This document shows, piece by piece, positions 16,401 to 62,500 of a DNA stretch of 64,000 nucleotides. Source of the stretch: Liolophura sinensis. Its lineage: Eukaryota; Mollusca; Polyplacophora; Chitonida; Chitonidae. The stretch spans positions 23,851,608 to 23,915,607 of the forward strand of contig NC_088300.1 of the NCBI RefSeq assembly GCF_032854445.1, in the 5' to 3' direction. A program made the position numbers and the translations under genes. The notes beneath the pieces were generated by a model that saw nothing but the letters and a program-made list of their open reading frames with translations, was not told the origin of the DNA and did no database searches. How positions within the stretch are numbered: position 1 is the first letter of the stretch; every line of letters begins with the position of its first letter.

Positions 16401-19400
16401 ATACTTAAAAATACGACAATGCACAAACAGTTCGCCCAGAAATGAAATGACACTATTATTTCTGTATCCAGTGTTTATTAATCATTACTATGATTACAAC
16501 AAATGCTTCCAGAGGTGCAACAGTCATGAATTTGCTACAAGTTTGTCATATTACTGGCCCTATTTGTGGTATTTTTCAAAGCACTGATTGCGGCACAGCC
16601 CAACTCCACAGTCCTTACACCACGTACCAATTCTGCTTCCTTGGTAACCTAAACCAGATTGTCTAGATTTGGCACAAACAACACATTTCCTTCTTTTGCC
16701 ATCTGGTATTTTACTGATGAAATGCCTGGCTGACTTTCTTGCCAGTGGATCACCAATACTTGGCCTGCCTACCTTCCTGCGTGGCTCCTCATACCCACCA
16801 ATAAGTCCCTCTACAACTGATATGGTAAATTTCAAGTGTGTCATAGGAATTCCTTGTATGTTGGAATTTTCCTTGTACAAGATGTAGGCATTTGTAAGGG
16901 TTCTATCAAGCAAGTGAAACACAATCTTTCTCCAACATTTTCTACTTTTTAGTTCACAAGAATATTGATCTGTCATCTGGTCAGATTTATCAACACCACC
17001 CATACCGGCATTGTAGTCAATAACGACATTGGGTACAGTCTTCTTTACCTTGTTATGATTTTCTTTTTCAACTGTTCCAGCATTTGAAATAGTAGATAAA
17101 AGCCTGACCTGTTTTCTGTCCATCCAATTTACTGCCAAAATCTGTCCTTTGCGTTGGCAAACCATATCACCTTTATGTTTCAAAGTTTTCTTTATAGGGT
17201 CAGGCAGTCCCACACGGTTTGACCTGACAGTACCAGTCACATATATCTGTTTATCCAGCATATGTTCACACAGTGGAAGGCTTGTGTAGTAATTATCCAC
17301 TACAAGATGGTGATGTTTTCCACCATGATTTTCCAACAACCTATCACACACATCGAATGGCTGACCATGATTTGAAACTTTCATATTGGCAACATGATAT
17401 ATGGTTTCATACACATAACCACTGTTAGAATCTGCAAGGGAATACTCTTTGGGTCCCCATTGGTGGTGTTTTTTTATGCGAATGTAATTGACCAGTGTGT
17501 GCCTGCCCTTGAATCCAACAATTGATTCATCAATAGAAATAACAGGGCCCAAATCATACTCCCTTGCCCATGACTCATTGAGAAAATTCAATATTGGTCG
17601 AAATTTATACTGAGGGTCATAGTCTCGATCTCCGCGTCTTGGTTCATTTTCACTATCAGAGCAATGCATGAAGCAAAGAATATTCTCAAATGTCTGAAGT
17701 GTCATGACACGCCTAAACACTGGAGTGTCCTGTGAAAAATTAGTTGAATTCCAGTACTCCGCAATGCTGTGCTTACGAACAAGTCCCATGTTGAAGTACA
17801 GTCCAACAAAAGCACGCAGTTGTGATACATCCATTGAATTCCATTTGTGATACCGTGAATGCTCCTGAAGCACACCAGCTTTTCTCAAACTAAAGCTGTA
17901 GTATTTGTTAGTCTCATCAACAATGAAATCCCAAAGTGACTGTCCATCAGGCTGGGAGCATTGGAAAAATCTGTCAAAATAGTCAACTGGTGGTGTGTCC
18001 TGTGGCGGGTTCCATACTGGTCCTCTGTGTGACACAAAGTCATTCACGTTTGGAGGCTGGTCTTGTTGCAAGTTTCGAACAGTTTGCCAAATATCATAAT
18101 CCACTGAATCATTGGAGCGATCACCATTGTCAGCAACCCCAAGACCTGCATCCCCATGCCCGTGGTCAGTTTGTTCAACCACATCACAGCTGTCAGAATT
18201 TCCCATATGCACAACGTTACGGTTACTTCCGGGTTCACTATCGTCCGGTTCAGACGACGAATCTGAATCCTCATAGCGAAATTCACTCACATCCATGTCA
18301 CTGCCAGAGTCGTGGCTGTCAGAAGAATCATCAGGATCGTCTAAAAGGCTCACAACTTGCCTGACATCGTATAAGCGTACCCGTTTTCGCACTGACCGGC
18401 GTGGTGTTGGACCTGGCGCCGCCATTTTGAAACCGCAACCTACAAACTCGCCAAATTCCGGCTAAAACGGTCTCTGATTTGCTCCAAAGTGTTGTGTCAG
18501 CTCGGCACAGTGTCTATGCACTACATGGCGCAGAGATAAAACTTGGCCCTGTATGGAGTTTGTTCCCAGAATGCATTCAAATCACTATGGCAGGAAACGA
18601 CAATAATGTCGCTCTACCAGTAAGCCTGGGGCGACAAAAATGTCGCTTTACCGGTAAAAGGGTTAACTGGACACCAACACCAACCCTGACAATGACACTT
18701 ACGCTGTTCTCACAATACCTCGTCTTGCTTCGTACATGCAAGCTAAAAGACTTTAGCATCAATACTTAAGCGTTGGAATTAAAAGCACAATTTTAGTTCC
18801 ACAATTTTTATGTGCTTCAGAAAGAGCAGTTTTTAAGGAAACTCTATAGGTAAAGTAGAGTAGTAACAAGTAGACAAATGAGTTACCCACGTTCAATGCT
18901 GTCATCAGCTTGTTCTGGTTCAGGCTCAGATGCAAGGGCTGCAAGCTTACTTAGGCTTAACAGGGTCTGAAAGGAATATACAGTAAATGTCCTAAAATTA
19001 TGTCCAAAAACTGCAAATTAAAGGCAAATATAAGATGTTACAAAATGCTCAAAAAACTCCATATTAAAGGCAAATAAAAGATGTTACCAAATGCTCAAAA
19101 AAACGCATATTAAAAGCAAATATAAGATGTTACAAAATATTACTTTCACTGCTAAAACTTGCAAACAAACCTGAAAATAGAATTTTATCCTTTTCTCACT
19201 TGTATTCAGGTGAAACTAGAAGTTTTTAAAAGTATATTTATCCGAATTCACTAGACCTACTGGCTTTATCACGTTCCATCATGTCTGTTACAAAATAAAA
19301 CGCCATTAAGTTCATGACACCAACTATCATCAATGTCGGTGACGCGGATCACTATAACGGTTTGTTTATTCATTTTATTTCATTGAGTTTTATTCCATAC

Positions 19401-22400: not shown

Positions 22401-25400
22401 GCCAATAATATAGAAATGTTCACAGCCTGCATTCAGATATAGTCATAGTTTACACTTCACAATTTGCCTGAGATTTAACACATTTTAACTCAAGAATATT
22501 AACCTTTCACATCAACAGCTATAAGTACTACACAAGGGATGAATGTGGGGAACACTAATGGGAGAAAACTGCAAACCGAAGATTTCAGTCATCAATTTGC
22601 CCAGGAACTGATTGTTCAAATCGGTACAAAACTACATGTAGTTGAATTTCAGTCAATCCTGAAGTTAATACTAGGCTTAACAGTTAACTGACTCTTGAAC
22701 AAAGGTGTTTCTGAATTTTTCGGGTCAAAATTTGAGATACCACTTCAGAAATTACTTTTTGCCCTAGAACACCTCATCAATGTTATCTTAAAACCAATAT
22801 ATCAAAATATCAACTTCCTTCACCAAAAACAAAGCATTCTGACGAAGTTTTAAATTTTGACTTAAGATAGAAATCTCTTTCCTTCACCAAAAACAAAGCA
22901 TTCTGACGAAGTTTTAAATTTTGACTTAAGGTTGTAACAGTACATACTGAATGGCTGCAGTAAAGCCTGTCTGTCCTCTTCGTATTTCCTTAACACCTGA
23001 TCCAGCCTTTCCTTCTGTCCCTCCTCTCTTTGCTCTCGGATAGAATCCAGTTGACATGAGTAACCATTCAGGATGAAGTCTGCCAGTGCCAGGGCTTGCT
23101 GGAAAAGTCCGCTCCTTGTGTCCATGTCCTTAGCTTCTGGTACAGCATTCTCAATTGTCAGCGTAAACTGAATCATGACAAACAATCCTTACAAAGAGTT
23201 GACAAACCAATCAATGTGCACGCAGCAAAACTGCCCTATTTCTTGGGGCAACGGGTCTCCTCATTTTAGCCAATATATATATATAATTGTAACAGGAATA
23301 TTAGGTTTCCTTTCTCACATGGTTAGACCATCTAATGAACAGCATACTCATATCTTTTTTTCCAAAGGCCTGGTAAAGAAATGTAATATTCTACTTTCCA
23401 CACTACTAATATCTGTCCCAAAAATTAGACGAATAAGAGTACTTAAGTTAAATCCTGCACAGGAAACATAAATGGAATGGTATTATCACTGGAATGAATG
23501 ATGGCACTGTGGACCACTAACTACGAATAGAATGCTAAGTTAGAGCTGAATCTGTTTATTCTGTTATTACAACTCTGTGACAACTATTCATTACATCTGA
23601 CACAACAATAATTCTGATGCAAATGTGTTATTACACTATGAGAGAGAAGAGATTCATTACATCTGACACAACAATAATTCTGATGCAAATGTGTTATTAC
23701 ACTATGAGAGAGAAGAGATTCATTACATGACACAACAATAATTTTGATGCAAATGTGTTATTACACTATGAGAGAGAAGAGATTCATTACATCTGACACA
23801 ACAATAATTCTGATGCAAATGTGTTATTACACTATGAGAGAGAAGAGCCTGTTGTAAGGTACCTCACTTCATGGCCAGAGAATGCTAAGGTCAATTATTA
23901 ATTTGCTCATTGGCTAATACATTTACAAAGCTACCATTCTAAGTACCCTGAGGTGTTCCGTGAATTTTAAATGTCTGGCTCAAGTTAAGAAGAAAAATTC
24001 AATCACTTGTTCTCTTTTCTGGGTGAACAGTACATGTTGAGAGGGTTTACAAGTTCCTTCATTTAAACAATAAACAGACAGGCCTTCCATGAAACAAAGC
24101 ATTTATTTCCATCATTACTTTTAACTGATGCCACAAAAATCAATCAAAACAAAATCTGCCAATATAAGGCCTTCTATGAAACAAAGTATTTCTTTTTATT
24201 ATTACTTTTAACTGATGCTGTGAAATTTAATCAAAACCAAATCTGCAAATTTAAGCCACAAAAACTGCAAAATGAACTGAAATTATCACCCACTGTTGCT
24301 CACTGGTGTTCACAGATCTTGTGTTTTTATAATGGTTGCAGATTTAATCAAGTTTATAACGCACCTGTCTATGGAGGACGGTACGAGCACCTTTAACCCC
24401 AAGAGATGACGTCCACGGGCAGTACTCTGGCAGTCTCCCTTTGGCACCAGCCTCTGACTGGTACATTTCTGCACTGGTCATACGGTACTGAAGCGCTTCA
24501 TGAATCATTCCCTGAAAGATGGAAAATAAAAACAAAAAACAGAAACATGAGAGTTTACTATCAGAGAGATAAAAATTGTATTGAGATACATGTACATGGA
24601 CATCATACAAAAACCATACAGCACATGTTAAGCTAATTGGTTCTGTCCTGGATATTTGAACTCTGCGAAAAGCAAAACTTTATGTATTTGTTTTCTGTAC
24701 TCATCAAGTAAAATAACACAGCCTAAATCAATGGATTAGATCTTTTTAATACCTAAGGTCTACTTCTAGATGAACTCACCTCAATGATGGTGTCTATGGT
24801 CATGACCAGATTCACCTACAGCTACCTGAACTCACCTCAAGAATAGTGTTTATAGTCATGGTCCGATTCACCTCCCACTACCTGAACTCACCTCAAGAAT
24901 GGTGTTTATAGTCATGGTCCGATTCACCTCCCACTACCTGAACTCACCTCAATGATGGTGTCCATGGTCATGACCAGACTCACCTCCAGCTACCTGAACT
25001 CATCTCAATGATGGTGTCCATGGTCATGACCAGATTCGCCTCATACTACCTGAACTCACCTCAATGATGGTGTCTATGGTCATGACCAGACTTACCTCCA
25101 GCTACCTGAACTCATCTCAATGATGGTGTCCATGGTCATGACCAGATTCACCTCATACTACCTGAACTCACCTCAGTGATGGTGTTTGTGGTTATGACCC
25201 CATTCACCTCATAGTACCTGAACTCATCTCAATGATGGTGCTAATGGTCGTGACCAGATTCACCTCCAACTACCTGAACTCATCTTGATGGTGTTTATGG
25301 TTATGCCCAGACTCACCTCATACTACCTGAACTCGCCTCAATGATAGTGTTTAGATTCATGACCCCATTCACCTCATACTACCTGAAATCACCTCAATGA

Positions 25401-28400
25401 TAGTGTTTATGGTCATATGAGGTTTATGGTCATTCACCTCATACTACCTGAACTCACCTCAATGATGGTGTTTATGGTCATGACCAGATTCACCTCCAGC
25501 TACCTGAACTCATCTCAATGATGGTGTTTATGGTCATGACCAGATTCACCTCATACTACCTGAACTCACCTCAATGATAGTGTTTATGGTCATATGAGGT
25601 TTATGGTCACTCACCTCATAGTACCTGAACTCACCTCAACGATGACCTTTATGGTCATGACCAGATTCATTTCACACTACCTGAACTCACCTCATAGATG
25701 GTGTTTATGGTTACAATCCGATTCACCTCATACCACCTGAACTCACCTCAATGATGGTGTTAATGGTCATCACCAGATTGACCTGGTCCCGGGGCAGGAG
25801 GTCTGTCACAAGGGTCTCCTCTTCATACTCTAACAGGGCTCCTATTACCTCATCTACCCTGGACACCTGATAATTAAGCACCAGTTGAGAATTACAAACA
25901 GCTTGTAAACTATAACTGTTTTACAACAAATTCAGCTCAACACAATGTTTAGTATGAGTAAATTTGCATGAACATTAAGTTGTTACAAAATTCAGCACAT
26001 TTACATCCCTTTTTAGAAATTTCCCATAAGTCTACTGACAACTTGTCAAAATGTCCAATGAGAAAGCTTGAAAATAACATCAATTTCGTGCCACTGGTGT
26101 AATCTTTTTAGTCAAGCTCTATCCATGTGAAACAGCCAAGCAGGCTGGTACACATGGGCAAGCAAAGTTGACCTCAAAAACCATCACAGTTCCCTGCAAT
26201 TTGTCTGTCAAAATCAACACGCAAACCGTAACACATTCATATGTCCAAAATATGATTAAAACAGTTAATTTCTTTCTTGTACTTTCATGTTCAAGGTAAG
26301 CAAGCACAATTTAAATCGAATAAACAAATTCAGAGAATATATATGCACTGTCTCATGGTAATTATGCAAAATGTGTTCAGCTGTTTAGAAGTGTACTGAT
26401 ACGTCAGACATATACTTACTGGATTTTAATCTGGATTAAAAGTTGATAATGTGTAGAAACTATAGAAGAGAAACTGTTCATATCTCTCTCAAGATTTATT
26501 GTGAAGAAACTGTTCCTACCCCTCTATAGAAGAGAAACTATTGATACCTCACTCTAGATATATTTATCTGTTTGATTTGTGTTCTACGCCAAGCTCAAGA
26601 ATATTTCACCCAAATGAAGATGGCCAGGATTGTGCTGGGAGGAAACCACAGGAAAAACATGACCATCCACAGATTGCAAACCTTTCCATGTATGGCCAGA
26701 GAGGAAGCCAGCATGAGTTGGACTTGAGTCATGAGTCACTGCATCCTGTTGGCTTCTTAACCACTCTGGCCATAGGGATCCTCTTCTCTCTGCAAGACAA
26801 ACTGTTCCTACCTCTCTGTAGAAGAGATCTTGAGGAGTGAGTCCTGGGACGAGTTCTGCGTCTTCTCTGTTGACGAGGACTCGTCTGATAGCCAGGTCTA
26901 CCAGGGCAGTGTGCCTGAGGGAAAAGAAAACCAGTGACTGAGATGATTCAATGTGGCTGGAACCAGCAGGTATTACTAATCATTACACCACCTTCTCAAT
27001 GAGTTCACAAAGTAAATCAAACAAATTTATTCCTGATGTAACTTCTTTATATACATTGTATTTCATTAGATTTTTACCAAGTACTTATAGAATATTTCAT
27101 TTATTTGACAGCGGTCAGCATTTTGGTGGAAGGAAACCGAGAAGAGTCTAGTGCCCATAATCATCATCTGCCCATGACCATCTGCAGGTTGCTGGCAGAT
27201 ATTCCTACATGATGCCAGCATGAGGTGGACTTGAACTCACAACCACTGCATTGGTTGAGAGGCTTCTGGTCATTGTGCTGAACTAGGAAGTTATAAACCA
27301 CTAGGCCAGTTTGAGATATTAGAAATAAAATGAAATTGCGGCATTGATTTACATGAAACTTTAGCACTCCTGCTTTTATTTCAAGTTCTGATATAATCCC
27401 TCACTACAGCAGTCAAACTTAATGTGTAGTAGTCATTATGCCAAATCCAGGGTCTAATGCACATGAATTTTCAATTGAAATTTCCTCCGTTATAGATGAT
27501 CTGCAGAAAAATAGAAAAACAAAAAATATTCTGAAATTTTGAATTTACACAAAATCTAACTCACTGTGAATGGAGTTCTCTGAGCACTGTAGCAGCCACA
27601 ATTTTCTCCACATGTTCACAGAGCAGAAGACGTGTTAGCATAGGTCTATCCCGGACATGAACAGTCCATAGCTGAAACACATTGTGGGTGATTTCAAGTG
27701 TCAAATAAAACTAACAATCTGATTTTTACAGTTCTTTGTGTAAATATGGATTTTTTACAAGAACAAACATGTAATGCTGAGTCTAACTTTGATAAGTCCG
27801 AGCAGAACGATGGCATGTGTTTAACAATGTCTTGCTCAATCTACAGAATGGGCAAAAAAAAAAAAAAAAATTAAAAACCAAAAAAAAAAACAAAAACAGT
27901 TTGAGTCAGCCCAATTTTACCGGGTCTGTTGCATTACCTGCAATGTCTTGATTTACCTGCAACAGACAACTTTTTACTGATCGCCTTAGCTGACAGACAT
28001 TCTTCTACCAGATAAAATCAGAGAACTTACCTTATTCCACAAACTAAACTTTTTCAGGAAATTTATGAAATAGTTATGTGCTCTTTGTTTGTTTGTCTCG
28101 CAGTTGATGTAAAATGATGAGAGAGTTGGTACTACTACCAGAATCTGAAACAGTGAAGAAAGTAAAATAATTCATGAAAAAATAAAATAATTCTCGAAAA
28201 AAGTAAAATAATTCATGACGAAAGTAAAATAATTCATGAAAAAAATAAAATAATTCTCGAAAAAAGTAAAATAATTCATGAAAAAAATAAAATAATTCTC
28301 GAAGAAAGTAAAATAATTCATGACGAAAGTAAAATAATTCACAAAGAAAGTTAAAATAATTCATGATAAAAGTAAAAAATTTCAAGAAGAAAGTAAAATA

Positions 28401-29172
28401 ATTCATGCCGAAAGTAAAATAATTTATGCAAAAGGCAGCCAAAGAATGAAATGCATACAAAAGTTTTAATTTCATCATCAGACGCAGGGCAATTTATTAA
28501 AAACCAACTTCCTCAGTGTGAAATTTTTTCAAGTCACACTAATTCACATACACTTATTTTCTTAAGGCTACATAATGTTCCAGTTTAACACAATACACCA
28601 AATCTAAACAGTATAAAAACAAATTAATGGCAATATGGTCAACCCACATTTTCACCTGTCTGTTCACCAGAAGATACATATCATTTAAATTCATGCATCA
28701 TATTCAACAATCCAGTACTTCCTGGAACATAGCTGAACAAAATAATGATATCAAACATAACTTTATCTATTACAGTCCTAGTGATGCGACAACATCTGAC
28801 ACTACATGTGTCAAAAAGAAAATGTTTAAAATTACTGTATTTCCCCCAAAGTTTGGCTTTAAAATGAGTAGACCTATACGCTGGATAAATCAATCTGAAT
28901 CATGCCAAATGTGTCCACTGAAGAATGCAAAACCTTACACAAAATACAGTAAGTCACCTATAAAATCCACTTTAGTACATAAGCCCTATAGTTTTAGAAC
29001 GTGTAAAATGCAGACCTTGTACAGCTGCCTCAGCCCAGCGTGGATCCGATGCTGGGTAATCATCCACTAGGGCTATGCTCAGTTTGACAACCAGCTGGTC
29101 CAGTTCTGGGTTAGACTCAGTGATAGGGCTGTCAGGGGGAAATAATTCATCCACAATTAGCTGAGCTTGATC
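10411..29172 (-). CDS. NUP133: NUP133 exons 17-34: alpha-helical C-terminal domain
   Basis: Exon positions, 5' to 3': 17, 29016-29172; 18, 28031-28144; 19, 27565-27671; 20, 26812-26914; 21, 25747-25866; 22, 24365-24511; 23, 22948-23167; 24, 22182-22315; 25, 21630-21669; 26, 21026-21150; 27, 19824-19883; 28, 18891-18966; 29, 13651-13712; 30, 12878-12934; 31, 12082-12162; 32, 11667-11734; 33, 10980-11065; 34, 10411-10547 (stop TGA 10411-10413). Landmarks: DDYPASDPRWAEA (17), RLLLCEHVEKI (19), LTPQDLFYRE (20), EYCPWTSSLGVKGARTV (22), RAASLAEKYYDFPTLIKIC (24), ETLFKWYLKEG (25), AHTTLLQLGLEERG (27), TLLSLSKLAALAS (28) and EYDFKKALDLL (31). These are the best conserved stretches of the family. The last residues are QFLLRAGYEQIQKVLG. 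Confidence 0.92.
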
Positions 29173-32100: not shown

Positions 32101-35100
32101 AAATCAGCTGAAATGTTGGACATTTTGGTCAAAGATCACATACTCTGAAAATCTTGATTTTCCTGAAAATTTCATAAGCTGAAATTTCGCATTCCTTGTA
32201 ATTGATTTGATATCGGGAAGTGTTGGCATCAGAAGTATCTTTTGAAAGCTACAGATTTTTACAGATCAAACTTCAGATGGAGTTAGTGTGAAGTGAAGAC
32301 TGGTTCTTGTGCTGTTTTAGCACCGTACATGTACCTGTGAAAATAGTTATGATTTGCACTATCACACAGGTACCCGTCGTCATTCTCAAACACTAACCAG
32401 TCGACAAATGAGAGGAAAACATCATACATGTTTAGGGTGCCTTTGAGGCGAAGAGGATTGACCTTGGAGCGACCCTTGAGTTGAAGTCCAGCTGATGTTA
32501 GCTTCCTCTCCGGCCGTACGCATGAAGGTCTGAAAGCAATCTGCGAATGGTTGTGGATTTCCCAGGGGCTCTGCCCGGTTTTTTCTCACAAACATGATGC
32601 TGTTAAATAAGTGAAATATTCTTGAGTACATTGTAAAACACCAAAAAAAACAAAAACAAATCATATACGTTTCCCTGAAGAATTATTTCTCACATTATTT
32701 CATGCTTTGCACACAAGTGCACATCATCAACATTACTGAGACCCAAATTAATATCAAATGTCTCCACTTACCTGGTATCGTTCAGCATAATCAACCAGAA
32801 TAAACTGGTCCAAGCTGGTTGGCTGGATTAATCCACCTATATTCAGAATACCTGTACAAGAGAAATGGAAGAAAGGAAGAGTAAACTTTTGCACTGTTCA
32901 AGGCAATATCACAGGTACTATTAAGATCATGTCATAATAGGTCAGAATGCAGAGTTTTTAGATTCTACTAGCATCCTATACAATTCAGCTCTCCAAAACC
33001 TGAATTTATGGAAAATTTTAACCATTACAGGGTTAACAATTATAAATGAAAGGTATACACCTAGTCAGAGATTGTACGAGGCTTTCTCTACAGACCTATT
33101 CCATAGTAGAAGGCTGGGGAGACTTCAGGGTTAACACCTGCCCCTAAAACCATCACTCCAGACCTGTTCACAAACACATAAAACATCCATAAACACCATA
33201 ATCACTACAAAAACATTTTGAAAATAAATTATCTTTGGACCTGCCTTAATTTTCACTGGAGCTCTTGTCTACCTGTAGTCCAATCTGCTCTCTCAACATA
33301 TACTGTCTGATGACGAGAGAATGTCTGCCATTTTGAATTCTGCTGAGTTCACAACCACTGCCTTAATCAAATTACAGTATAAAAAATAAAGCACGCATCA
33401 CGTTCATTGCTGATTTCTGTTGTCTGTAAAAAACTAATATCCTTGTGACACAATCAGAGCAAAGATTTTGCCACTTTTTCCTCTAATTTCTTGGACAACA
33501 CTCGATAACCAATGAAGTTGTTCAGAATATGCAAATTGAGTTCAAATTTTGTTCTTTTGTCCACCTTTGCTGCACGTCTATAGAAGCTGACTACCTCTTG
33601 TATAATGCATGTATATACACGTCAAGGAATCAATGGTAATGAATCTACAACACTGAATAAATATAGCTGTGATAATATACAGACAATTTGAAATGAGCAT
33701 CATTCTGTCCATCACTTTACCTTGTCAACTGCATGTCCAGGAGCCAGACCTTAAGCCGGGTTAGCTGAGCTGAGTCCTGGTCCTGTAATACAAAGCTTAC
33801 ATCAAATACTACAGAAGATTTTTATTTGTTTATTTATTCTATTTGATTTGATGCTTCACGCCGTATTCGAGAATATTTCTCTTAAACGACTGTGGCCAAC
33901 ATGATGGTCAAAGAAAACCGAGTACAGCTCGGTGGAAACCCACGACCATCCGCAGATTGCTGGTAGATCTTATCAACTACGACCAGAGAGGAAGTCAGTT
34001 TGAGCTAGACTTGAACTCACAGCAGCTGCATGGGTGATGATCTGTGTACAGAGCTTCCATATTATCACCCTGTGTGTTCTTTACTGAGACATAAATTTCC
34101 AGCTTGTTTGAAAAATACCTACCCAACACTTTTTGGCGAAGGCCTCTCTGTACAACCTCTCGACATCTGCCTGGTACACCAACTTAATGAAAAGAAACGA
34201 TTTCAACATTAGATTAGATCATTAGACACCCTCACACCTATCATTAAGTACACGTATCTTCAACCAGTACTGTATGTATTAAGTCGCCTTACCTTCTCCT
34301 TACCTTATCCACATCTCTTTACCTTATCTACATCCCCTTACCTTATCTACATCCCGTTACCTTACTTACATCCCCTTACCGTAACTACATCTCCTTACCT
34401 TATCTACATCCCCTTACCTTATCTACATCCCCTTACCTTATCTACATCCCGTTACCTTATTTATATCCCCTTACCGTAACTACATCTCCTTACCTTATCT
34501 ACATCCCCTTACCTTATCTACATCTCCTTACCTTATTTACATCCCCTTACCTTATTTACATCCCCTTACCTTATCTACATTGTACATACCCTTACCTTAT
34601 CTACATCTCCTTACCTTATTTACATCCCCTTACCTTATTTACATCCCCTTACCTTATCTACATTGTACATACCCTTACCTTATCTACATCTCCTTACCTT
34701 AACTACATCTCCTTACCTTATCTAAATGTCCTTACCTTAACTACATCTCCTTGCCTTAACTACATCCCGGTACCTTATCTACATCTCCTTACCTTATCTA
34801 CATCTCCTTACCTTATCTACATTGTACACACCCTTACTGTATCTACATCTCCTTACCTTAACTGCATCTCCTTACCTTATCTACATCCCCTTACTGTATC
34901 TACATCCCCTTGCCTTATCTACACCCCCTTACCTTATCTACATCCCCTTACCTTAACTACATCTCCTTGCCTTAACTACATCCCGTTACCTTAGCTACAT
35001 CTCCCTACCTTATCTACATCCCCTTACCTTAACTACATCTCCTTGCCTTAACTACATCCTGTTACCTTATCTACATCCCCTTACCTTAACTACATCTCCT

Positions 35101-38100
35101 TATCTTAACTACATCCCCTTACCTTATCTACATCCCCTTACCTTATCTACATCCCCTTCTGACATGACCCACTTCTGTACATGAGAACCGGATAAAACAT
35201 AGAAATGACGGACCCCATCCTCATCCACGTCCCCAGCCAGAACCCTGTGTAACGGCTGAAACAACATCACAAGTTAACAAAACATAAACCATTTACTCAT
35301 AACACTGACATTTTGTGACATGCTGGGCATGCATGAGGACAGTCTAGTGTATGAAACTGCCACGCCTTTCCATCATTTTTAGCGGCTTTGTTTTAGAAAT
35401 TAATAAAAAATAAATAGTCTTCCACAACAGAAAACCCAGAGATCTATGAATTTTTGCAAGAAATGTTATCAATGGGCTTGTTTATTTATTTGATAAGTTG
35501 CTAAATTTAGTTTATTCAATATTTTTAATGCTCATCTTTAAAATTGTCTAATGTTGTAAGGAAATATCCATCACTTATTTCTTATGATGGCTTTTTTGGG
35601 AAATTATAGACTGTACATATTTGTTTCTAGCAAAACATAAGCTACAAATTGCATACATTTAAAAAAATAACAGAAAAATGTAACACAATCATCACCAAAT
35701 GTTTACCCTGACAACTTCTGGTTTCAGATCCAAACCTATGTATTTAGCCTTTAAGATGCACGAAGACTACATGTATGTCCTGCATGTAAGAGCATACTCA
35801 CGGCACCAATAGTCTGAGCTGGACCACTGCCAAAGATAAAGGAAGACATCCTGCGGCTGATCCCAGCGAACATCCCCTGAGCTTCCTTCAGGGGCCGACA
35901 CATTAACCCAGTCTGCAAGAGGGCCATTGATTGATTGATTTACTTATTTGATTGGAGTTCTACACAGTACTCAAGAATATTATAGGACGGCGGCCAGCAT
36001 TATGGAGGTAGGAAACCGGGCAGACCAGGACAAACCAGGACAAACCAACTGCAGAATGCAGGCAGACATTCCCACTTATGACCAGAGAGAATGAGGTGGG
36101 CTGGAACTCAAAGCGTTTGCACTTGTGAGAGGCTCCTATGTCACTGTGCTGTGTCAGCACACTAACAAACAGGCACGTGCTATTGAGAAAACGAAGGGTA
36201 ACAGCTTGAATTTCAGTCTCCTTATAACTGCTTACTGACAAGCCAAATCAGCAGATTATTTCAATATCCTGTAAGTCGTTTTCAACTTTGATAATCAGTT
36301 GTAAACAAAATCTAACATGTGCAAGTTTGGACTTTGACAATCTGAGTTAAGACTAAGACTTCAAAACTTTAAAACAAACTTTTACGATTGTCATTCAGAG
36401 ACATAACAGCATATTCATAAACATCTACTGACAAGCCACATCAGTAGAATATCTAAATATCTCATCAGTCATGTTCAACTTTGATATTATCAAAGTTACC
36501 CTATCTCTGCGCGTTAGATACTGAATTTTATCCTGTTCCCTGGCAAAACTATCGCACGACCGCGAAGCAACCAAGTAGATTACTATATAACCCATCAAAG
36601 AATTTATCCTATCTTAGTAAATCTATGCCGATATTTGAGTCTGACTTGTAAAAAATAAAAATAAAATAAATGAAATTGGGATACGAACTACAGGAAATCA
36701 GGTCACAGTGTGACGTCAAATATAGGTCAGCCAAAAGACTGACATCGTAAAGTTCAACTTCTGCGAGACATAAATGTAAAAGTACAGTGTTCTATTTTTG
36801 TGTCACAATTTTGTGGCAGTGGATATTCACCTTAATGACGTTACATTTGGAGAATATCAGTAACATATTTGGTTGTCTCGGTGGCCATTGAAAAGTCACA
36901 GAAGAGGCGGATTTATCCACTTCGCTGGAGTGAATTTAGGCTGACTGCAAAGTTGTTCTTGCACATGTAAATTGTAACTATTGCTGCTGGATATCAAAGA
37001 CTGATAGGGAGATTTCTGTGGGATTTACAGAGTAGTCTGGGTTCTCCTGAGGATGACACAGGTAAGCCCTATCACCGACGTCACTGCATGGTCAGAAATA
37101 AAATAGTAATCTGTGTAGAGGTAGGTCTACCCATGCAAGCGGTAAATTTCTTCAAAACTGCTGAGTTTAGCCAAAGTTTAAAACTCTGCCACTTTTCCTT
37201 CTTGTACTGAATTGTAAGTATTGTACACAATACTGACATTTTTTACTTGCTTTTGAACATGCTTTTGACTTGAGGACACTTTATTTTCGTCTAGATTTGG
37301 AAATTATTGTAACTTGAAAATGACTTGAAGGGTGGAGTGTGGCATAGACATTTACCCCACTGCACGTGATTGCTCTCAACCAATGGCTAGCCTAGAATCT
37401 ACTGCGTGTAGAACTAATAAATCATAACCTATACCCAGATAATCTGGTTTTACTTTGAAAGTTCAGTGAACTTTTACAATTTCCATTCAGAGACACAACA
37501 GCATATTAAACAGCCATTAAAATACTGCAAGATAATGAATGAATGAAATTGATACTAGATCATGATTTGAAGCTACAATTTGAAATAAAGACATTTGCCG
37601 GAACAGTGAACAGTGGCTTAAATAATTACCTCAACCAGAGTACAATAGTAGATCCTAATGCCTAACATACCTGTCCTACACACGGAGATACAAGCACTAA
37701 AGAACTAGTTGTTGTAGCCAAGATGCACCCGTAAGGCTGGAAAAAAAAAAATTAAATCAATCATTATGTTATTAGGTTTCCATATCAGCCACATTTCTGC
37801 AATTAAGAGTAATTGTTATACACGGGATTTTCAACTACTGGTATCATACGTTATAGAAAACAAATTGTCATCGTAAGCATCTAGTTTTCAAAGGTAAGAA
37901 CTCAAAACTTTTGCTGTAATACTGTTCAATGACCATATAGATGACAATGTCTCAACTGATGCATATTGTTGTTATATGGTTTTCGCCTAAAAGCTTGTTT
38001 CAAATACTTTCTGTCTGAGCACGTGTTCCAAAGCAAAATAATTTTTATCAGGGAGAGTTCTGGAGTAACTCACTTACACAATCCCTCAATTCAAACGTGA

Positions 38101-50169: not shown

Positions 50170-53100
50170 TAGTAAGTGTGAATGACTTGCTGGAACACTA
50201 GGTCATATTATATGTACAGCTAACTGTTACACTCACAAAAAATATCTGGAAAACTCAGTCAAATTCAATGTACAGCCACCTATCACACCCTAGTCATAAT
50301 ACATATACAACTCTCACAGTTGCACAATGTGGGTGAAATGCCCAGTCACATACGTGTAGCCAATTATTGTCACATTCACATAATATGGGTGGACACCCAG
50401 TTACACTGCATGTACAGCCCACAATATACTGTAGCTGGAACTTCCAGGCATATTTCACACACAGCAAACGTTGGCACACAATATGGCTTGAACTCCCAGT
50501 CCTATTACAGGTACAGCTGTCACACTTGCCCCAGTATGGCTGGATCACTCGGTACATCCAACCATTCATGCACGTGAACTAGGGAACACAATATGACTAA
50601 AAGTAACACTACATATACAACTGTCACATTTGCATAATCTGGGTGGAATAGCCTGTCATATGTATAGCCAAATATGGTCACAATTCAAGAATATGGGTGA
50701 AACACCTGTACAGCCATCTTTCACACCTGCACAACATAGGTGGAACATTCAACAACATTACAATTATGCAGCCAATTACTGTCACACTCCCAGAATATGG
50801 GTGAAGCACCTGTACAGCCAACTGTCATACCTGCACAACATAGTCGAACATCCAACCACATTACAATTATGCAGCCAATTACTGTCACACTCCCACAATA
50901 TGGGTGGAGCACCTGTACAGCCAACCTTTACACCTTCACAATATGAGTGGAACATCCAACCACATTACAATTATACAGCTAATTACTGCTGCACTCTCAC
51001 AATATGGGTGGAGCACCTGCACAGTCAATCGTCACACCTGCACAACAGTCGAATATCGAACCACATTACAATTATGCAGCCATGTACTGTCACACTCCCA
51101 CAATATGGGTGGAGCACCTGTACAGCCAACTGTCACACCTGCACAACAGTCGAATATCCAACCACATTACAATTATGCAGCCATGTACTGTCACAATCTC
51201 ACAATATGGAAGGAGCACCTGCACAGCCAACCTTCACACCTGCACAACATGGGTGGAACATCCAACCACATACAATTATACGACCAATTACTGCTGCACT
51301 CACACAATATGGAAGGAGCACCTGCACAGCCAACCTTCACACCTGCACAACATGGGTGGAACATCCAACCACATTACAATTATACGACCAATTACTGCTG
51401 CACTCACACAATATGGAAGGAGCCACCTGCACAGCCAACCTTCACACCTGCACAACATGGGATGGAACATCCTACTACATTACAATTATACGACCAATTA
51501 CTGCTGCACTCACACAATATGGGGTGAGCACCTGCACAGCCAACCTTCACACCTGCACAAAATGGGTGGAACATCCAACCACATTACAATTATACGACCA
51601 ATTACTGCTGCACTCACACAATATGGGTGGAGCACCTGCACAGCCAACCTTCACACCTGCACAACATGGATGGAACATCCAACCACATTACAATTATACG
51701 ACCAATTACTGCTGCACTCACACAATATGGAAGGAGCACCTGCACAGCCAACTGTCACACCTGCACAACATGGGTGGAACATCCAACCACATTACAATTA
51801 TACGACCAATTACTGCTGCACTCACACAATATGGGTGGAGCACATGTACAGGCAACTGTCACACCTGCACAAAATTGGTGGAACACAGTCCCACATTACA
51901 ATTACATAGCCAATTACGGTCACACTCACACAATATGGGTGGAGCACCTGCACAGCCAACTGTCACACCTGCACAACATGGGTGGAACATCCAACCACAT
52001 AACAATTATGTAGCAAATTACTGTCACACTCTCACAATATGGGTGGAGCACCTGCACAGCCAACTGTCACACCTGCACAACATGGGTGGAACATCCAACC
52101 ACATTACAATTATACGACCAATTACTGCTGCACTCACACATTATGGGTGGAGCACATGTACAGGCAACTGTCACACCTGCACAAAATTGGTGGAACACAG
52201 ACCCACATTACAATTACATAGCCAATTACGGTCACACTCACACAATATGGGTGGAGCACCTGCACAGCCAACCGTCACACCTGCACAACATGGGTGGAAC
52301 AGCCAACCACATTACAATTATATAGCAAATTACTGTCACACTCACACAATATGGGTGGAGCACCTGTAAAACTAACCTTCACAATTGGTCACATCACAAT
52401 TATATACCCAAATACTGTCAGAGTCACACAACCTTCACACCTGCACAACATAGGTGGAACATCCGACCACATCACAATTATATAGCCAACTGTCACACCT
52501 GCACAGCATGGGTGGAACATTCAACCACATTACAATTATATGACCAATTACTGCTGCACTCACACAATATGGGTGGAGCACCTGCACAGCCAACCTTCAC
52601 ACCTGCACAACATGGGTGGAACATCCAACCACATTATAATTATACGACCAATTATTGCTGCACTCACACAATATGGGTGGAGCACCTGCACAGCCAACTG
52701 TCACACCTGCACAACATGGGTGGAACATCCAACCACATTACAATTATATAGCAAATTACTGTCACACTCTCACAATATGGGTGGAGCACCTGCACAGCCA
52801 ACTGTCACACCTGCACAACATGGGTGGAACATCCAACCACATTACAATTATACGACCAATTACTGCTGCACTCACACAATATGGGTGGAGCACCTGCACA
52901 GCCAACCTTCACACCTGCACAACATGGGTGGAACATCCAACCACATTATAATTATACGACCAATTACTGCTGCACTCACACAATATGGGTGGAGCACCTG
53001 CACAGCCAACCTTCACACCTGCACAACATGGGTGGAACATCCAACCACATTACAATTATACGACCAATTACTGCTGCACTCACACAATATGGGTGGAGCA

Positions 53101-53935
53101 CCTGCACAGCCAACCTTCACACCTGCACAACATGGGTGGAACATCCAACCACATTACAATTATATAGCAAATTACTATCACACTCTCACAATATGGGTGG
53201 AGCACCTGCACAGCCAACCGTCACACCTGCACAACATGGGTGGAACATCCAACCACATTACAATTATATAGCAAATTACTGTCACACTCACACAATATGG
53301 GTGGAGCACCTGTAAAACTAACCTTCACAATTGGTCACATCACAATTATATAGCCAAATACTGTTAGAGTCACACAACCTTCACACCTGCACAACATAGG
53401 TGGAACATCCGACCACATCACAATTATATAGCCAATTACTGCTGCACTCGCACAATATGGGTGGAGCACCTGCACAGCCAACCTTCACACCTGCAAAACA
53501 TGGGTGGAACATCCAACCACATTATAATTATACGACCAATTACTGCTGCACTCACACAATATGGAAGGAGCACCTGCACAGCCAACTGTCACACCTGCAC
53601 AACATGGGTGGAACATCCAACCACATCACAATTATATAGCAAATTACTATCACACTCCCACAATATGGGTGGAGCACCTGCACAGCCAACCTTCACCCCT
53701 GCACAACATGGGTGGAACATCCAACCACATCACAATTATACAGATCACTACAAATTACTACCATATTCACACAATATGGGTAGAGCACCTATTCAAATTA
53801 CAAGTACAGCCAACTGTCACACTGAAACGATATGGTTGGAACCCATGGTAATGTTTCGTTCACAGCCAGCTATCAATGTCCTGTTTTATTACATGCAAAA
53901 CTGTCATACTCACACAAAATGAATGGAGTATTCAT
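50170..53935. repeat. Large tandem array, 104-bp higher-order unit
   Basis: The core (about 50690-53730) has close to 29 units of 104 bp. Each is ATGGGTGGAGCACCTGCACA, GCCAACCTTCACACCTGCAC, AACATGGGTGGAACATCCAA, CCACATTACAATTATACGAC, CAATTACTGCTGCACTCACA, CAAT. Starts at 52569 and 52673 confirm the period. Within the unit ATGGGTGGA recurs after 43 bp, so it is a dimer of unequal monomers (about 43 and 61 bp). The left flank (50170-50690) and right flank (53730-53935) hold degraded monomers (CCCAGTCACATAC, CCAGTTACACTGCATGTACA). Deletion variants near 52365-52460 and 53310-53400 are themselves near-identical, showing block duplication. Stop codons are absent from the consensus, which keeps frames of up to 579 codons open without any evidence of a gene. 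Confidence 0.93.
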
Positions 53936-55749: not shown

Positions 55750-56534
55750 CTACTCAGTTTGCCCAGCATGATAGTCTCCCCTTTGACCGCCTGTTTTAGA
55801 GAGTAGCTTGACATCAGTGATGACCATCTCACGACTGACAGCTTTACACATGTCGTAGATGGTCAGGGCTCCGACTGTTACGGCTGTCAGAGCTTCCATC
55901 TCCACCCCTGTCTTCCCGACAGTCCTTGCATATGAGGACAAAACGACACTGTGACTGTTCTTATCAAGCTGTACCTTAATGTCCACCTTACTCAGGGCTA
56001 TGTTATGACACAGCGGGATCAGCTCACTGGTTCTCTTGGCAGCCATGATGCCCGCTAGCTGAGATACCGTCAAAACATCGCCTTTCTTCATCTTATTTTC
56101 CTGAACTAACCGGAACACAGCCTCTCCTAAGAACACAGTAGCCGATGCTTGAGCAGTCCTTGTACTGTCAGGTTTGTCCCCCACGTCCACCATTGCAGCC
56201 TTACCAGCGCCATCTGTGTGAGTCAGCTGTCCATATGAGTTATTCCCCCCTGATTGCGATGCATCATAACTCAAGCTTCTGAGTGACCCATGTCTGTTTA
56301 AACGACTTGGCTGTAGCATTGACAAATTGCTATGCACACCCAGTCTTTTAATAAAGTCTGAATTCACTCTGTAGTTGGAAATCACTGGTGAAACAACAAG
56401 AGTGAGAAAGGCACTATGTGTTCTACAGTTATCTTCTAATTCATGACAAAATATACTCTCTGATTTCTCTGGAATGATATTTGCATATGGAATAAAAGGC
56501 TCATTTTCACCTTGATTTGATGATGGAGTAATAT
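55750..56534 (-). CDS. MOCS1: MOCS1 last exon: linker and MoaC (MOCS1B) domain
   Basis: After the acceptor TGTTTTGCAG the exon continues in frame from exon 58270-58390 (QHAG|DITPSS), giving a MOCS1A-B fusion. Roughly 100 poorly conserved residues lead into the MoaC domain. Its motifs are [37 protein letters not shown] followed by [23 protein letters not shown] followed by DMCKA, and [13 protein letters not shown]. It ends at a stop at 55750-55752 after GDYHAGQTE. The Lys and Asp residues of the MoaC active site lie in the conserved [14 protein letters not shown] and TDVKLL segments. Length and motifs fit a complete, working domain. Confidence 0.93.
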
Positions 56535-59500
56535 CTGCAAAACAGAATAAAAATTGCAAACTGAAATTCCAATGCATTTCAAAACAAATGTAATAAAACT
56601 AATGCGATTAAATTCATCACAGTACATCACAAAGCTGACAATTTCAAGAAAACAAAACTCATATACAGTATAACTGAATCTACCAGAATTAATCCAGCAA
56701 TAAAATGGATTTAAAATATACAGGAGTCAAGTTACCTTGTTATATTACCTCAAGTACAAAATAAAAATTTTTGGGCATTAAAATGATTTAATGCTGTAGT
56801 AATAAAACAGGAATAAAGTTAAACTTAAATTATTAATCTAAACTTCCCAAGCATTTACTCTAATTGGCTGTAGAATTAAGTACATACGGAAAACTCAATC
56901 TGTCACCCACCAATCAGAATCATTGGTCTATTCTTCATCTGAGATATGTTGAACATTCCTGTTAAGTAGACAAAACCACCTAAGTAAAAGATGAACTAGA
57001 GATGATTCAATCATAGTGGGAGATTCAATCACAGTGTAAGATAATCATTTATGCTTCAATAAAGCTGAAGGGGTTAGCACGCAGGCAAGGGGCAATGACC
57101 CAGGAGCCTGCCACCAATGCGTCTGCTGTGAGTTTAAGTCCATCTCATGCTGGCTTCCTCTCCTGCCATGCATGGAAAGGTCTGTCAGCAACCTGCGGAT
57201 GGTTGTGGTTTTCCCTTGAGCACTGCCATGTTTCCTTGCCAACGTATAAGTGAAATATTCTTAAGTACTGTGTGAAACACCAATCAAATAAATAAATAGA
57301 TCTTTAATAAATATTTGTAACTCTCTCTTAAATGTTGCTCTCAGTTTGCCGGTTTTGCGATCTACATCAACATGGCGTATTTATATTACCTGATATTATA
57401 CAGTGATATATTATTGCCATCAACATAAAAAAAGCAACATGTGCATTGTTCAAACCAAATAGGGGATGGAAATGGGGCCATCTCCCACTCACTTGGTTTG
57501 TTTCTCTGTACATGTGTGTAGTGTGTTCCAGCCAGCAGGGAGGTAGGAAGGGGTCGGTAATGGGCCGTCTCCCACTACCTTACTTCTCCTGCTGGTTAGG
57601 ACAGTTGCAGGGTTTTGTTTTTGTTTTTTGTATGTATGAATGTATATAGCTTCTCTTTTCAAACTACATGGTGCTTTATCTTGTACTGATGTAATTTATG
57701 ACTGGACTCTGAAGTATGTGTCCTCTATATTTGTTTTCTCTGTGAAGGCCTTGGGAAAGAACAGTTTCATTGTAAACTGTCTGAGCTACCTTCAATAGAT
57801 ATTAGTATTATTATTATTACATACCAATTACACCATCCTTTCAAATCCTGTTAGTCTATAATTTTGTTTTCACTTATGACTATCATTACAAATTCCCTCT
57901 TTCTGAACTTTTAAAGAGTTTCTTACTATAAACATAGGAATGGCTAGTCAATGCAAAAATAGTTTACAATTAGTATTTATGCGTTCCTTCTAATAATACT
58001 CATTTAGGAAACCATTTTTTCATTATTTTGCGCTGAATCACATTGTGACAGACTCAAAGTGCCAGCACATTAAATTTATGTATTTATTTATTTATTTGAT
58101 TGGTGTTTTACACCGTACTCAAGAATATTTCACTTATACGACAACAGCTATCATTATGGTGACAGGAAAGCAGATTAATAAATAAAAGCGAAATAAAGAT
58201 GGTTTCTGCAGGTACAAGTACACACAAATATTCCACACACCGTCACTCATTACCATCATGCTAGCTTACCGGCATGTTGTTTTTTCTTTCTCTTCACAGC
58301 ACAACCTATAACCTCAGTAATTTCTTCTTCAGACACCCCTGAACGAAGAGCATCCCTCAATGAAACCTCAGAGTTTCCAAACAGACAAACCTGTAGAGAA
58401 GTGATGCAGAATATTAAACTTTAGTTCGCACACGTTATCGATGGTTCTTTTTTATGTGATGCTCTAGAACATTTCACTTTACATGCCATCATGATGAGCT
58501 TTCCAGGTGGCAGTGATGGGATATAGCCCTAGGAAATCCACCATATCTCCACATATACCTGACAAACATCCAGACCAAAGCTACATCCAATAATAATACT
58601 TGGATTTGAACATAAAACTATCAGTTCTACAGCTGAACACCACTCAATCATTCAATCACTGAGACACATGTAATACACTGTAACATTATGACAAATTGTG
58701 CATTTTTTTTCTTGCACAAAATAATTTACCTTAAAACCATAAGACTGAATATCCCACAAAAGTTTAGCGAGATCAAACATTTCCGTCATACACTATCTTT
58801 AGTCCACACAAAACAAGTTTTGCTGGTTCTAGGAAAAATGGTTCTGGTTCTAAGAATTCTCTCATTTAGTATATTTTTTAAATATTTTCTGTATGTCTAA
58901 TATGATTGTCAGAAGTACCTTGAGGTTTCCATCAGCTGTAAGTCTTATACGATTACATCCGCCACAGAAGTTCTCACTCATGGAGGTAATAAAGCCTACT
59001 TGACCTTTGAACCCTGGTACTTTATATGCCTGCAAAACAGTTATTTATTGATTTATTCATTTTGTTTTATGCCATACTCAAGAGTTATTCACTTCATACA
59101 ATGATAATTATGTTCGACCAGAGGAGAAAACTTTAGTGCCCAGAGTACACCAACCCTCTTTACTAGGCACCCTACCGATTTATTTATAGACTCATGATTT
59201 AAAGCAACATTGACATGGCTTTATTAGAACATGCACAGTCTATGGGCAAGGGATGATTGGATGCAAAATATAAAGGAATAAAAAAATCAGACAGAATATC
59301 ATGAAGGTGATGTTTTATGTAGTGAGTAAATGTGAATTTAAAGTAAGAGACTGAAGCCAATATAGAATGGAAGAATACATTATATTTCGGACCTAATACC
59401 ACATGGCAAAACATAGGCTGTTCATGCTGATGTCCCAAATGAGTAAATGTAAAAACCAGTCCTACTCCATCATATTCTCAGCAATGTCATATCACTGTCG

Positions 59501-62500
59501 ATGTCTGAAGGCAATGAGTCAAACGTTATCAATTTTTTATCCACACAAAGTGGAACAACAACAAACAAAAAAAAAAAGCAAAGGGGAGGGGGTGGGGGGG
59601 CGCAAGAGCCATTTTGTATTATACAGTTTCCCCCCTACTCACTTTTGATGTGTCATTAGGTAAATCTGGCAGTCGAGAAAACTGGGGCCAGCGGGCTGTG
59701 ATAGTATCTAACATCTCCTGGTATGCCACCATTTTCTTAAAGTTCCACTTGTTACCATCAAAAGGCATGTACTCAATAAACCTAATATCCACGTTCTGAA
59801 AACACAGAAAATATGGCATATGTTGAAGAAGATTCCAGACAGATTCCAATCTACATGTAAATGCTTTTGCTCTGAATACATATTTCTAGGCTTACAAGCT
59901 TATACCTATGTTGAACTTCAATCTACACGCTGATATTTATTATAGTTTTGTTTACTGATTGTTCACTATACTCCAGAATTCTTTATTTATACAAAGATGA
60001 GTAATGTTATGGGTGGAGAGAACCAGAGGGCCAGGGGTAAATCATCCGCCTTTCTAGTTACAGATGAAATGTCTCATGAGTGATAAAGGTGAGTCATGTT
60101 ATGGGTGGAGAGAACCAGAGGGCCAGGGGTAAATCATCCGCCTTTCTAGTTACAGATGAAATGTCTCATGAGTGACAAAGATGAGTCATGTTATGGGTGG
60201 AGAGAACCAGAGTGCCAGAGGTAAATCATCCGCCTTTCTAGTTACAGGTGAAATGTCTCATGAGTGACAAAGATGAGTCATGTTATGGGTGGAGAGAACC
60301 ACAGTGCCAGAGGTAAATCATCCGCCTTTCTAGTTACAGGTGAAATGTCTCATGAGTGACAAAGATGAGTCATGTTATGGGTGGAGAGAACTGGAGTGCC
60401 AGGGGTAAATCATCCACCTTTCTAGTTACAGATGAAATGTCTCATGAGTGATAAAGGTGAGTCATGTTATGGGTGGAGAAAACCGGAGTGCCAGGGGTAA
60501 ATCATCCACCTTTCTAGTTACAGATGAAATGTCTCATGAGTGATAAAGGTGAGTCATGTTATGGGTGGAGAGAACCAGAGTGCCAGGGGTAAATCATCCA
60601 GCTTTCTAGTACAGACGAAATGTCTCATGAGTGACAAAGGCAAGTCGTGTTATGGGTGGAGAGAACTGGAGTGCCAGGGGTAAATCATCCACCTTTCTAG
60701 TTACAGGTGTAATGTCTTATGAGTGTTGTATAGCTACATATATGCACACCATATAGGTGAAAGTGGTCTACAACAAGTGTTAAAGTGTGAGAAACACTCC
60801 CACCAACACTGAGAATAAGGAATTACTAGTTAATCACTACATTCCCAATTCAACATGTTCAACGCCATACACTACAATTTTGGTTGGGTTTATGGCAAGA
60901 AACCTTGCAAACATGCAGGGGCACTCAAAATCTGTCATAAATTTATTTGAAATGAAACTGTTTATTTGAAACTGTACAATGCACAGCTGAGGGTAGCAAC
61001 ACAGTTTCATAAATAGACACTGACAAAATACATATATCAGAACAGTATATTACAAATATGTATTTAATGTGCTGGAACATACAAACCTTCTTCTCTGTAA
61101 ATGCTACAAAATCACAAATTTCTTCTTCATTTGTTCCTCTCATGACAACACAGTTTACCTTGAAAGAGAACAAATTTTACATTTCTTACAGAAACACACC
61201 TAACCAAACAACAACTAACTAGCTTTGGTAGATGTAACAACATATATTTAAAAACATTTCCCATGATTAGATTGGACAATGTATATTATTTATTTTTTGA
61301 AGGAAATATCAATTACACTATAATACATGTATTCACCATTAAATTTAAGATTTACGTATTTATTAGGCTGGTGTTTTGTGCCACCATCAAGGATGTTTCA
61401 CTTATATTATGCACTGGGCGGGGCTCAAAGGAAAACCATGACCATCCGCAAGTTGCCTTACCTTCCCATGTATGAATGGAGAGGAAGCCAGGAAGAGTTA
61501 AACTTTAACTCACAACAACTAAAGCTGAGATAAACTTCAGGGTCATTGTGCTGTGCTAGCTTACTAATCACTATGCCATAGAGGACCCCCACAAAATTAA
61601 GGCTTCAGTATTAGAGCAATAAGTCAATGTGTTCAGCCTAAACATTTTCTTCGCTGATATAAATGTGCAGTGTTTCTATACTGACAAGTTAATTACTTTG
61701 ATTGGGGCTCAGCACCATATTCACGAATTTCAATTAGATGATCGTTGTCCAGTTTATGGGTTGAGTATAACACAAGCTCCTTTTTCCAGGTTCCTGTCAA
61801 AACGTCAGACCCAAAGCCACACCAAACCAGTGGGAGTATAACCTCATTTGTTCCAGTTATCAGCTGTTCACTTGTAGTTAATAACAAGAGCCAACAAGGG
61901 TGATTAAATTGTTTTGGATTAACCAGACTGGAAAATATATTTGAAATTAGAACATACAGCTAAATTTCATTACCTTGACTGGATCGTAACCTAACTGTAA
62001 GGCCACATCAATGCCCTCTATGACCTTCTGCCAGCCTTTCCGGCGAGTTATGAACTCAAACTTGGCTGGAATCAGCGTGTCCAGACTGATGTTCAGCTGA
62101 TCTAAACCAGCTTCCTTGAGAACAGGTAACTTTCGGGCGAGTGTTACGCCATTGGTTGTCATGGCAATACTCTTTAGCCCTTCTGACTTCAGTTTGCTCA
62201 GTTCACCTAAGAATGGAGAAACATGTAATTTTTTTTTAAATTCTACCCCTCAATGCTCATTTTGACATTCTTTTAATTGGAAACCGTATTTGTCCAACTT
62301 TATTTTCTTGTTTGTCAGCTTACTGTTTGACCTTTTCAAATCAATTTTATGACTGTTTCACAACAGTGTCTCCTTCAAGCAGGTTGGTGTCAGCTTTATC
62401 ATACTTGTTGTGCTGCTTCACCAAGAAAACTATGCTGAAGACACCAAACATGCACTCCATTCCTCCCTCACCCAGTAAGAATATACTGACACCATGCCAA

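Follow-up and report, generated by a model that had tools for sequence, protein, structure and literature searches.

How is the right 5' splice site chosen when the end of an exon, donor included, stands as the first of dozens of near-identical copies? The question is raised by a stretch of 64,000 nt from the chiton Liolophura sinensis (C6:23851608-23915607 of a 609-Mb, 632-contig assembly), called the window here, to whose coordinates all positions refer unless a contig is named. A gene identified by homology as NUP133 lies on its minus strand, and two of its introns open with tandem arrays of different unit, each starting at the preceding exon end. Our main finding is that the array following one of these exons, with a 19-bp unit, is likely to be a neutral minisatellite, of the kind called mirages in amphioxus, which derives from the exon end with its donor and is tolerated, the first donor being the one used. 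It is probably one of many such arrays in this chiton genome.

Two introns of NUP133 open with arrays of the exon end

Exons joined by hand from the minus strand (a draft of 731 amino acids, several exons missing) matched the NUP133 chain of 5a9q, which we take to be human, with an E-value of 7e-106. The features of the two array-bearing introns are as follows; the slash marks the exon-intron boundary, and repeats were delimited with Tandem Repeats Finder (TRF).

35142..35255, minus strand: NUP133 coding exon PLHRVLAGDVDEDGVRHFYVLSGSHVQKWVMSEGDVDK; the array repeats its final 17 bp (homology, phase, unit match)
35136..35144, minus strand: authentic donor AAG/GTAAGG, score 11.3
34298..35158, minus strand: 19-bp array, unit GATGTAGATAAGGTAAGGG, 44 full copies, the exon end being the first (TRF and wrap-around alignment)
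34183..35141, minus strand: intron of 959 bp, made of 844 bp of array and 115 bp of unique sequence before the acceptor
34123..34182, minus strand: next NUP133 exon, LVYQADVERLYREAFAKKCW (homology, phase)
25747..25866, minus strand: NUP133 exon with terminal residues ...NLVMTINTIIE, from which the second array starts (homology)
24771..25784, minus strand: 56-bp array, 17.9 copies, beginning with exon end and donor GAG/GTGAGT (TRF)
24365..24511, minus strand: next NUP133 exon after the intron with the 56-bp array, GMIHEALQYRMTSAEMYQ... (homology)

The first exon is 114 bp (38 codons) long, with phase 0 at both ends, and terminates in TCAGAAGGGGATGTAGATAAG (codons GAT GTA GAT AAG) with GTAAGG directly downstream. 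It joins the exon at 34182-34123 in frame and without a stop, and the junction query KWVMSEGDVDK/LVYQADVERLYREAF aligns to NUP133 across the join with a gap of one residue. Because NUP133 homology and exon phase agree, the exon end is placed at 35142, as far as these two can tell, which backs the exon end and donor read earlier from the letters alone.

TRF reported a single array at 34298-35158 (period 19, 44.2 copies, 83% matches). The preliminary description had counted about 45 copies over 34284-35255; that interval holds the array together with the exon, which starts at 35255. The first of the 44 full copies is the exon end with the real donor, and the 17 terminal exonic bp are identical to the next copy, with zero mismatches, which supports an origin from the exon end and its donor. 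Wrap-around alignment bore out that most copies keep a near-consensus donor: GT is retained in 39 of the 44 (the other five being four GC and one AT), and the exact AAGGTAAGG in 28. Two consecutive exact units were matched only twice assembly-wide, both times within the NUP133 array, and a search of the assembly for a second haplotype of the locus found none, leaving a single copy.

The 56-bp array, which occupies 976 bp of a 1235-bp intron, starts at the exon end ...ATTGAG/GTGAGT. A copy can be aligned, with mismatches, to as many as 38 exonic bp, and the neighbours of its exon also align with NUP133. The gene hence carries, as had been claimed, an independent array with a different unit and a like origin. 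Both arrays consist of minisatellite-sized tandem units that span an exon-intron boundary, the real boundary being the first copy.

The 3' splice region of NUP133 also bears a minisatellite.

28154..28428, minus strand: 21-bp array of TGAATTATTTTACTTTCTTCA, pyrimidine-rich and resembling a branch point; 7 bp separate its end from the acceptor AG of the exon starting at 28144

A copy spanning the junction of this AG with the exon was looked for in the array and none was found.

The first donor is first, not strongest

Donor and acceptor strengths were read on approximate matrices, the donor matrix being a general one. On this scale the array donors score 11.3 (19-bp array) and 11.1 (56-bp array), the top values among the NUP133 donors scored. 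A statement that they are the strongest of the gene was dropped: the AAG/GTAAGT following the exon at 28144 lay outside the scored range, and this word scores 12.7 elsewhere, that is, above both. Scoring of each copy, suggested in the preliminary description, gave a plain result: of 42 copies found by their similarity to the exon, 38 carry GT, and 27 equal or exceed the score of the real donor. The first donor is not stronger than those decoys, it is only first, from which we infer that exon definition settles the choice.

In the 19-bp array an in-frame stop starts 15 nt past the authentic donor, ahead of the second copy's donor at +19; in the 56-bp array a stop starts 21 nt past the donor, ahead of the second copy at +56. 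Because the stop precedes the second copy's donor, any later copy acting as donor would truncate NUP133, and since each later donor would add a stop codon, the protein requires the first.

Across the copies, donor columns show neither decay nor striking conservation. The donor 9-mer has a mean mismatch of 0.050 in the 19-bp array and of 0.049 in the 56-bp array, where the remainder of the unit has 0.092. Nine-base windows more conserved than the donor window number 1 of 19 and 9 of 55, respectively.

We propose that the founding unit comprised the last ~17 bp of the NUP133 exon and the opening bases of the intron with the donor, and that the array may have begun as a single 19-bp tandem duplication, perhaps through slippage between exonic AAGGGG and the AAGG of the donor. 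Growth and homogenisation would have followed, as for any minisatellite; in a repeat-rich genome, minisatellite births may catch splice sites. During splicing, exon definition would pair the acceptor 114 nt upstream with the nearest donor, so that the first is used and later copies remain intronic as decoys. With exon definition choosing the first donor, the arrays would be tolerated. The gene model keeps the exon and the protein unchanged, consistent with regular splicing.

Donor arrays recur at other genes

Arrays of the donor motif AAGGTAAG were listed across the assembly, together with clusters from a single-site list for the start of C1, and their exon-side flanks were fetched. The resulting loci are those among the matches listed and cover part of the genome. 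Of 43 loci fetched, a GGTAA microsatellite (L020) was dropped, and six (L095, L098, L105, L106, L107 and L109) whose exon-side array edge was not reached were kept for automated scoring of 42 arrays and set aside from the curated set of 36. Among these 36 resolvable arrays, 17 start at what we judged to be a coding exon end; the remaining 19 were left out of the coding-exon count. Homology supports eight of the 17 exons, and the other nine were accepted on open frame, acceptor, codon score and the match of exon end to unit.

L001: annexin, E 1.9e-19
L006: SID-1 channel, E 5.9e-10
L007: LEDGF, E 9.5e-10
L013: alpha/beta hydrolase, E 1.1e-6
L094: raptor, E 5e-11
L100: PDE5-like, E 1.9e-16
L103: glutamate carboxypeptidase-like, E 9.8e-8
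L097: adaptin ear, a weak Pfam match, E 0.0034, plus score
L005, L008, L012, L016, L017, L093, L099, L101, L108: frame, acceptor, codon score, unit match

Searches for Pfam matches gave none for L100 and L103, and searches for family matches none for L005, L008, L012, L016, L017, L099, L101 and L108; for L093 they returned only a sub-threshold coiled coil (E 0.038). The exonic part of the unit reaches 86-87 bp in L093 and 66 bp in L100. It is 10 bp in L017, and in L006 ~9 bp match by eye and in one alignment, with none passing a further comparison. For L099, L101 and L103 the match of exon to unit was judged by eye, the downstream sequence being too short for alignment, and L008 scores exactly 6.0 at its donor. 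Outside the 17 stand L092, a coding-like exon whose array starts ~295 bp downstream, L010, whose high automated score stems from array sequence, and the doubtful L011 and L102.

The 3' boundary is involved as well. Of 17 array-bearing exons, 3 (L006, L007 and L108) have copies spanning the acceptor on their upstream side, versus 0 of 20 NUP133 exons (P 0.09); the 17 acceptors tested are those of 16 counted exons (none was found near the tested start of L017) plus the doubtful L011, and flanks in the L097-L108 batch were shorter than 900 bp. The AG is kept in the L007 copies shown and in some L108 copies, and reads AA in the L006 copies shown. The NUP133 donor arrays and these acceptor-spanning copies together represent both 5' and 3' boundaries.

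Two of these loci deserve description. At L007 (C2:6165800-6168800), a LEDGF-type exon is flanked on both sides by arrays from its own boundaries: upstream are 26-bp units, in which 24 junction-spanning positions matched and the AG is kept in those shown, and downstream 41-bp units with the donor. At L006 (C1:95188000-95190800), the SID-1 exon has an upstream 52-bp array with 17 acceptor-like copies and a downstream 21-bp array that is open in frame for 1134 nt, so that decoy donors there could lengthen the protein rather than stop it.

Are splice junctions preferred birthplaces?

Splice junctions might also be the preferred birthplaces of tandem duplications, through their motif, R-loops or transcription-coupled breaks, so that the arrays would be targeted without being functional. 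We regard this as unlikely, if with some substance, and the tests that bear on it disagree.

Exon ends were scored with a codon and acceptor score trained on 1089 codons of NUP133 and MOCS1 from the window, with a test set that partly overlapped these exons; it put 17 of 18 real donors above 6 and 95% of 238 plus-strand sites below 5.7. Single AAGGTAAG sites (57 fetched of 67 listed) served for comparison. By the exact score, 13 of 42 arrays look like true exon ends, as do 11 of 57 single sites (P 0.24); a relaxed score gives 18 of 42 and 17 of 57 (P 0.21), no significant excess in either case. These automated counts include L010, L092 and two relaxed hits well away from the array (L111 and L113).

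Reversed-motif arrays are, moreover, about equally common. Three AAGGTAAG motifs at gaps of 4-34 gave 271 matches versus 222 for the reversed motif, and at gaps of 35-65, 602 versus 418, these being matches and not loci, while single sites number 25,008 and 27,441, respectively. Counted by eye at gaps of 4-34 over the stretch that both lists appear to cover (C1 to C3:22.3 Mb), there were 9 donor-motif and 14 reversed-motif loci among the matches listed. Because matches are not loci and the jointly covered stretch gives 9 versus 14 loci, we claim no excess of donor-motif arrays.

Several results nevertheless hint at targeted birth and so weigh against a purely incidental origin. With the relaxed score, the 18 of 42 donor-motif arrays compare with 1 of 14 reversed-motif control arrays (L021-L034; P 0.02), the one control above the threshold being a low-complexity stretch. 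The curated 17 of 36 arrays exceed the automated 11 of 57 single sites (P 0.006), the criteria of the two counts being different. Of the 16 array edges in NUP133, 4 are at most 40 bp away from a junction versus a null mean of 0.84 (P 0.007), in a test that places arrays randomly within introns, with cut-offs chosen post hoc and some exon limits approximate; a limit of 20 bp leaves 2 edges versus 0.59 (P 0.12), and one of 10 bp leaves 1 versus 0.29 (P 0.25). Three exons, finally, carry copies of both their boundaries. Another null, in which arrays were shifted randomly over the whole gene (observed overlaps 2-3, null means 3.9-4.4), was rejected because shifted arrays may cover exons.

Donors are thus not avoided by arrays, and a preference for splice sites is possible but unproven. 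The preliminary description had held coincidence to be unlikely. Its premise, an origin from exon and donor, is supported; the conclusion has to be qualified in this genome, which is rich in minisatellites, where donor-motif arrays are not clearly commoner than reversed-motif ones and, by automated scoring, arrays are not placed at exon ends significantly more often than single donor motifs. A wider idea starts from the distance between chitons and amphioxus, which both make arrays of their own exon boundaries, on the donor and on the acceptor side. It takes junctions to be preferred sites of minisatellite nucleation across Bilateria, some property of the junction (its sequence motif, or transcription and splicing themselves) driving duplication and many genes splicing against dozens of equal decoys, and is offered as a speculation with a small chance of being right.

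Could the array have a function?

A common origin from a donor does not by itself show function. One functional reading follows the human gene IFI6 (6-16), whose minisatellite, according to the title of Turri et al. 1995, reportedly supplies several splice donors to the transcript. The NUP133 array would likewise be a working set of donors, which vary the transcript or switch it off through stop-containing, decay-prone isoforms. Many decoys do equal the real donor in strength, and the donor columns show no decay; that the donor window is among the better-conserved windows of both arrays is likewise predicted by a functional reading and counts against neutrality. Yet the in-frame stop at +15 truncates every decoy isoform, NUP133 is a housekeeping protein, and amphioxus mirages reportedly leave splicing undisturbed (excerpts of PMC3087553). 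We hold such a role to be improbable.

Still less probable is a role as a landing pad for the U1 small nuclear ribonucleoprotein, kept to protect the intron from early polyadenylation or to speed splicing. The 38 GT decoys in U1-like context within one 959-bp intron would suit it, but period, copy number and donor sequence all differ between the two NUP133 arrays, and 19 of the 36 resolved arrays elsewhere were not counted at a coding exon. That an unrelated repeat merely abuts an exon ending elsewhere is hardly credible: the junction stretch is a weak match when taken alone (i-Evalue 0.0053 in one search and 0.041 in the whole-draft search), but phase and frame, the 17-bp identity with the exon end and the homology of the whole gene speak against it. 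A neutral array that began as the exon end and its donor, with the first donor used, therefore stays our preferred explanation.

Relation to known boundary minisatellites

Mirages are said to have been first reported by Canestro et al. in 2002. In amphioxus, these minisatellites of exon-intron boundaries have been described in Adh3, the globins BflGb6 and BflGb9, TnC and PGBD5, with units of 10-72 bp (Adh3) to ~150-160 bp (globins) that include 5' or 3' boundaries (excerpts of PMC3087553 and PMC3902484). The globin paper reads Adh3 data and its own reverse transcription PCR as suggesting that splicing proceeds undisturbed by mirages (PMC3087553). The chiton arrays resemble them in that tandem units span the boundary and many copies keep splice signals. 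They differ in their host and in occurring at many genes of one genome; length instability and normal splicing are reported for the amphioxus arrays. In the accessible part of the openly licensed literature we found no report of boundary minisatellites outside chordates, and a string search of papers gave no hit. Because the chiton arrays match mirages and no such report was found there, we consider them a known kind in a new phylum, Mollusca, and at many genes of one genome.

The human IFI6 repeat also has its donor inside the minisatellite unit, and that unit (CAGGTAAGGGTG) shares AGGTAAGGG with the chiton unit; in IFI6 several donors are reportedly supplied to the transcript, whereas in the 19-bp array of NUP133 any later donor adds a stop. 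In human segmental duplications, internal tandem repeats at exon-intron boundaries alter exons or create introns (excerpts of PMC2812944). These too are minisatellites at an exon-intron boundary, but the NUP133 model keeps exon and protein unchanged.

Each array offers a natural competition test, with dozens of near-identical donors of which one is correct. If RNA shows that the first donor alone is used, these loci would measure how exon definition picks among equal 5' splice sites. Their occurrence at many genes of a mollusc points to boundary minisatellites as a general by-product (or product) of minisatellite birth, with relevance for intron growth and, as proposed for amphioxus, intron gain.

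Other features of the window and the assembly

TRF run on the whole window gave 37 rows, some overlapping. Among the arrays is one of 104-bp units (more than 25 copies, 50690-53743) between NUP133 and the gene upstream of it (55753-62954, minus strand), presumably MOCS1-like, which has a Radical SAM exon (E 3.3e-10) and a MoaC domain (E 4e-55). An open frame of 633 amino acids within a NUP133 intron (16563-18461, minus strand) encodes a transposase domain (DDE_Tnp_1_7, E 2.9e-70) together with a zinc finger, and we take it to be of piggyBac type. In the NUP133 exon at ~28144-28020 (minus strand), homology to the human protein shifts frame between ...LIILHQLRDK and ...QRAHNYFINFLKKFSLWNK, owing either to an error of the assembly or to a frameshift polymorphism of the sequenced animal.

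Two contigs of the assembly are mitochondrial. On contig C632, one strand encodes 16S-ND1-ND6-CYTB-ND4L-ND4-ND5 and the opposite strand COX3-ND3-ND2-COX1-COX2-ATP6 (COX1 and 16S were named by the search tool, the others by eye from their translations), an order that we take to be the ancestral molluscan one. Most chitons retain the inferred ancestral mollusc mitochondrial order (excerpts of PMC7003433). Contig C99 has seven COX1 matches spaced at ~15.5 kb, that is, mitochondrial genomes arranged head to tail, probably an assembly concatemer.

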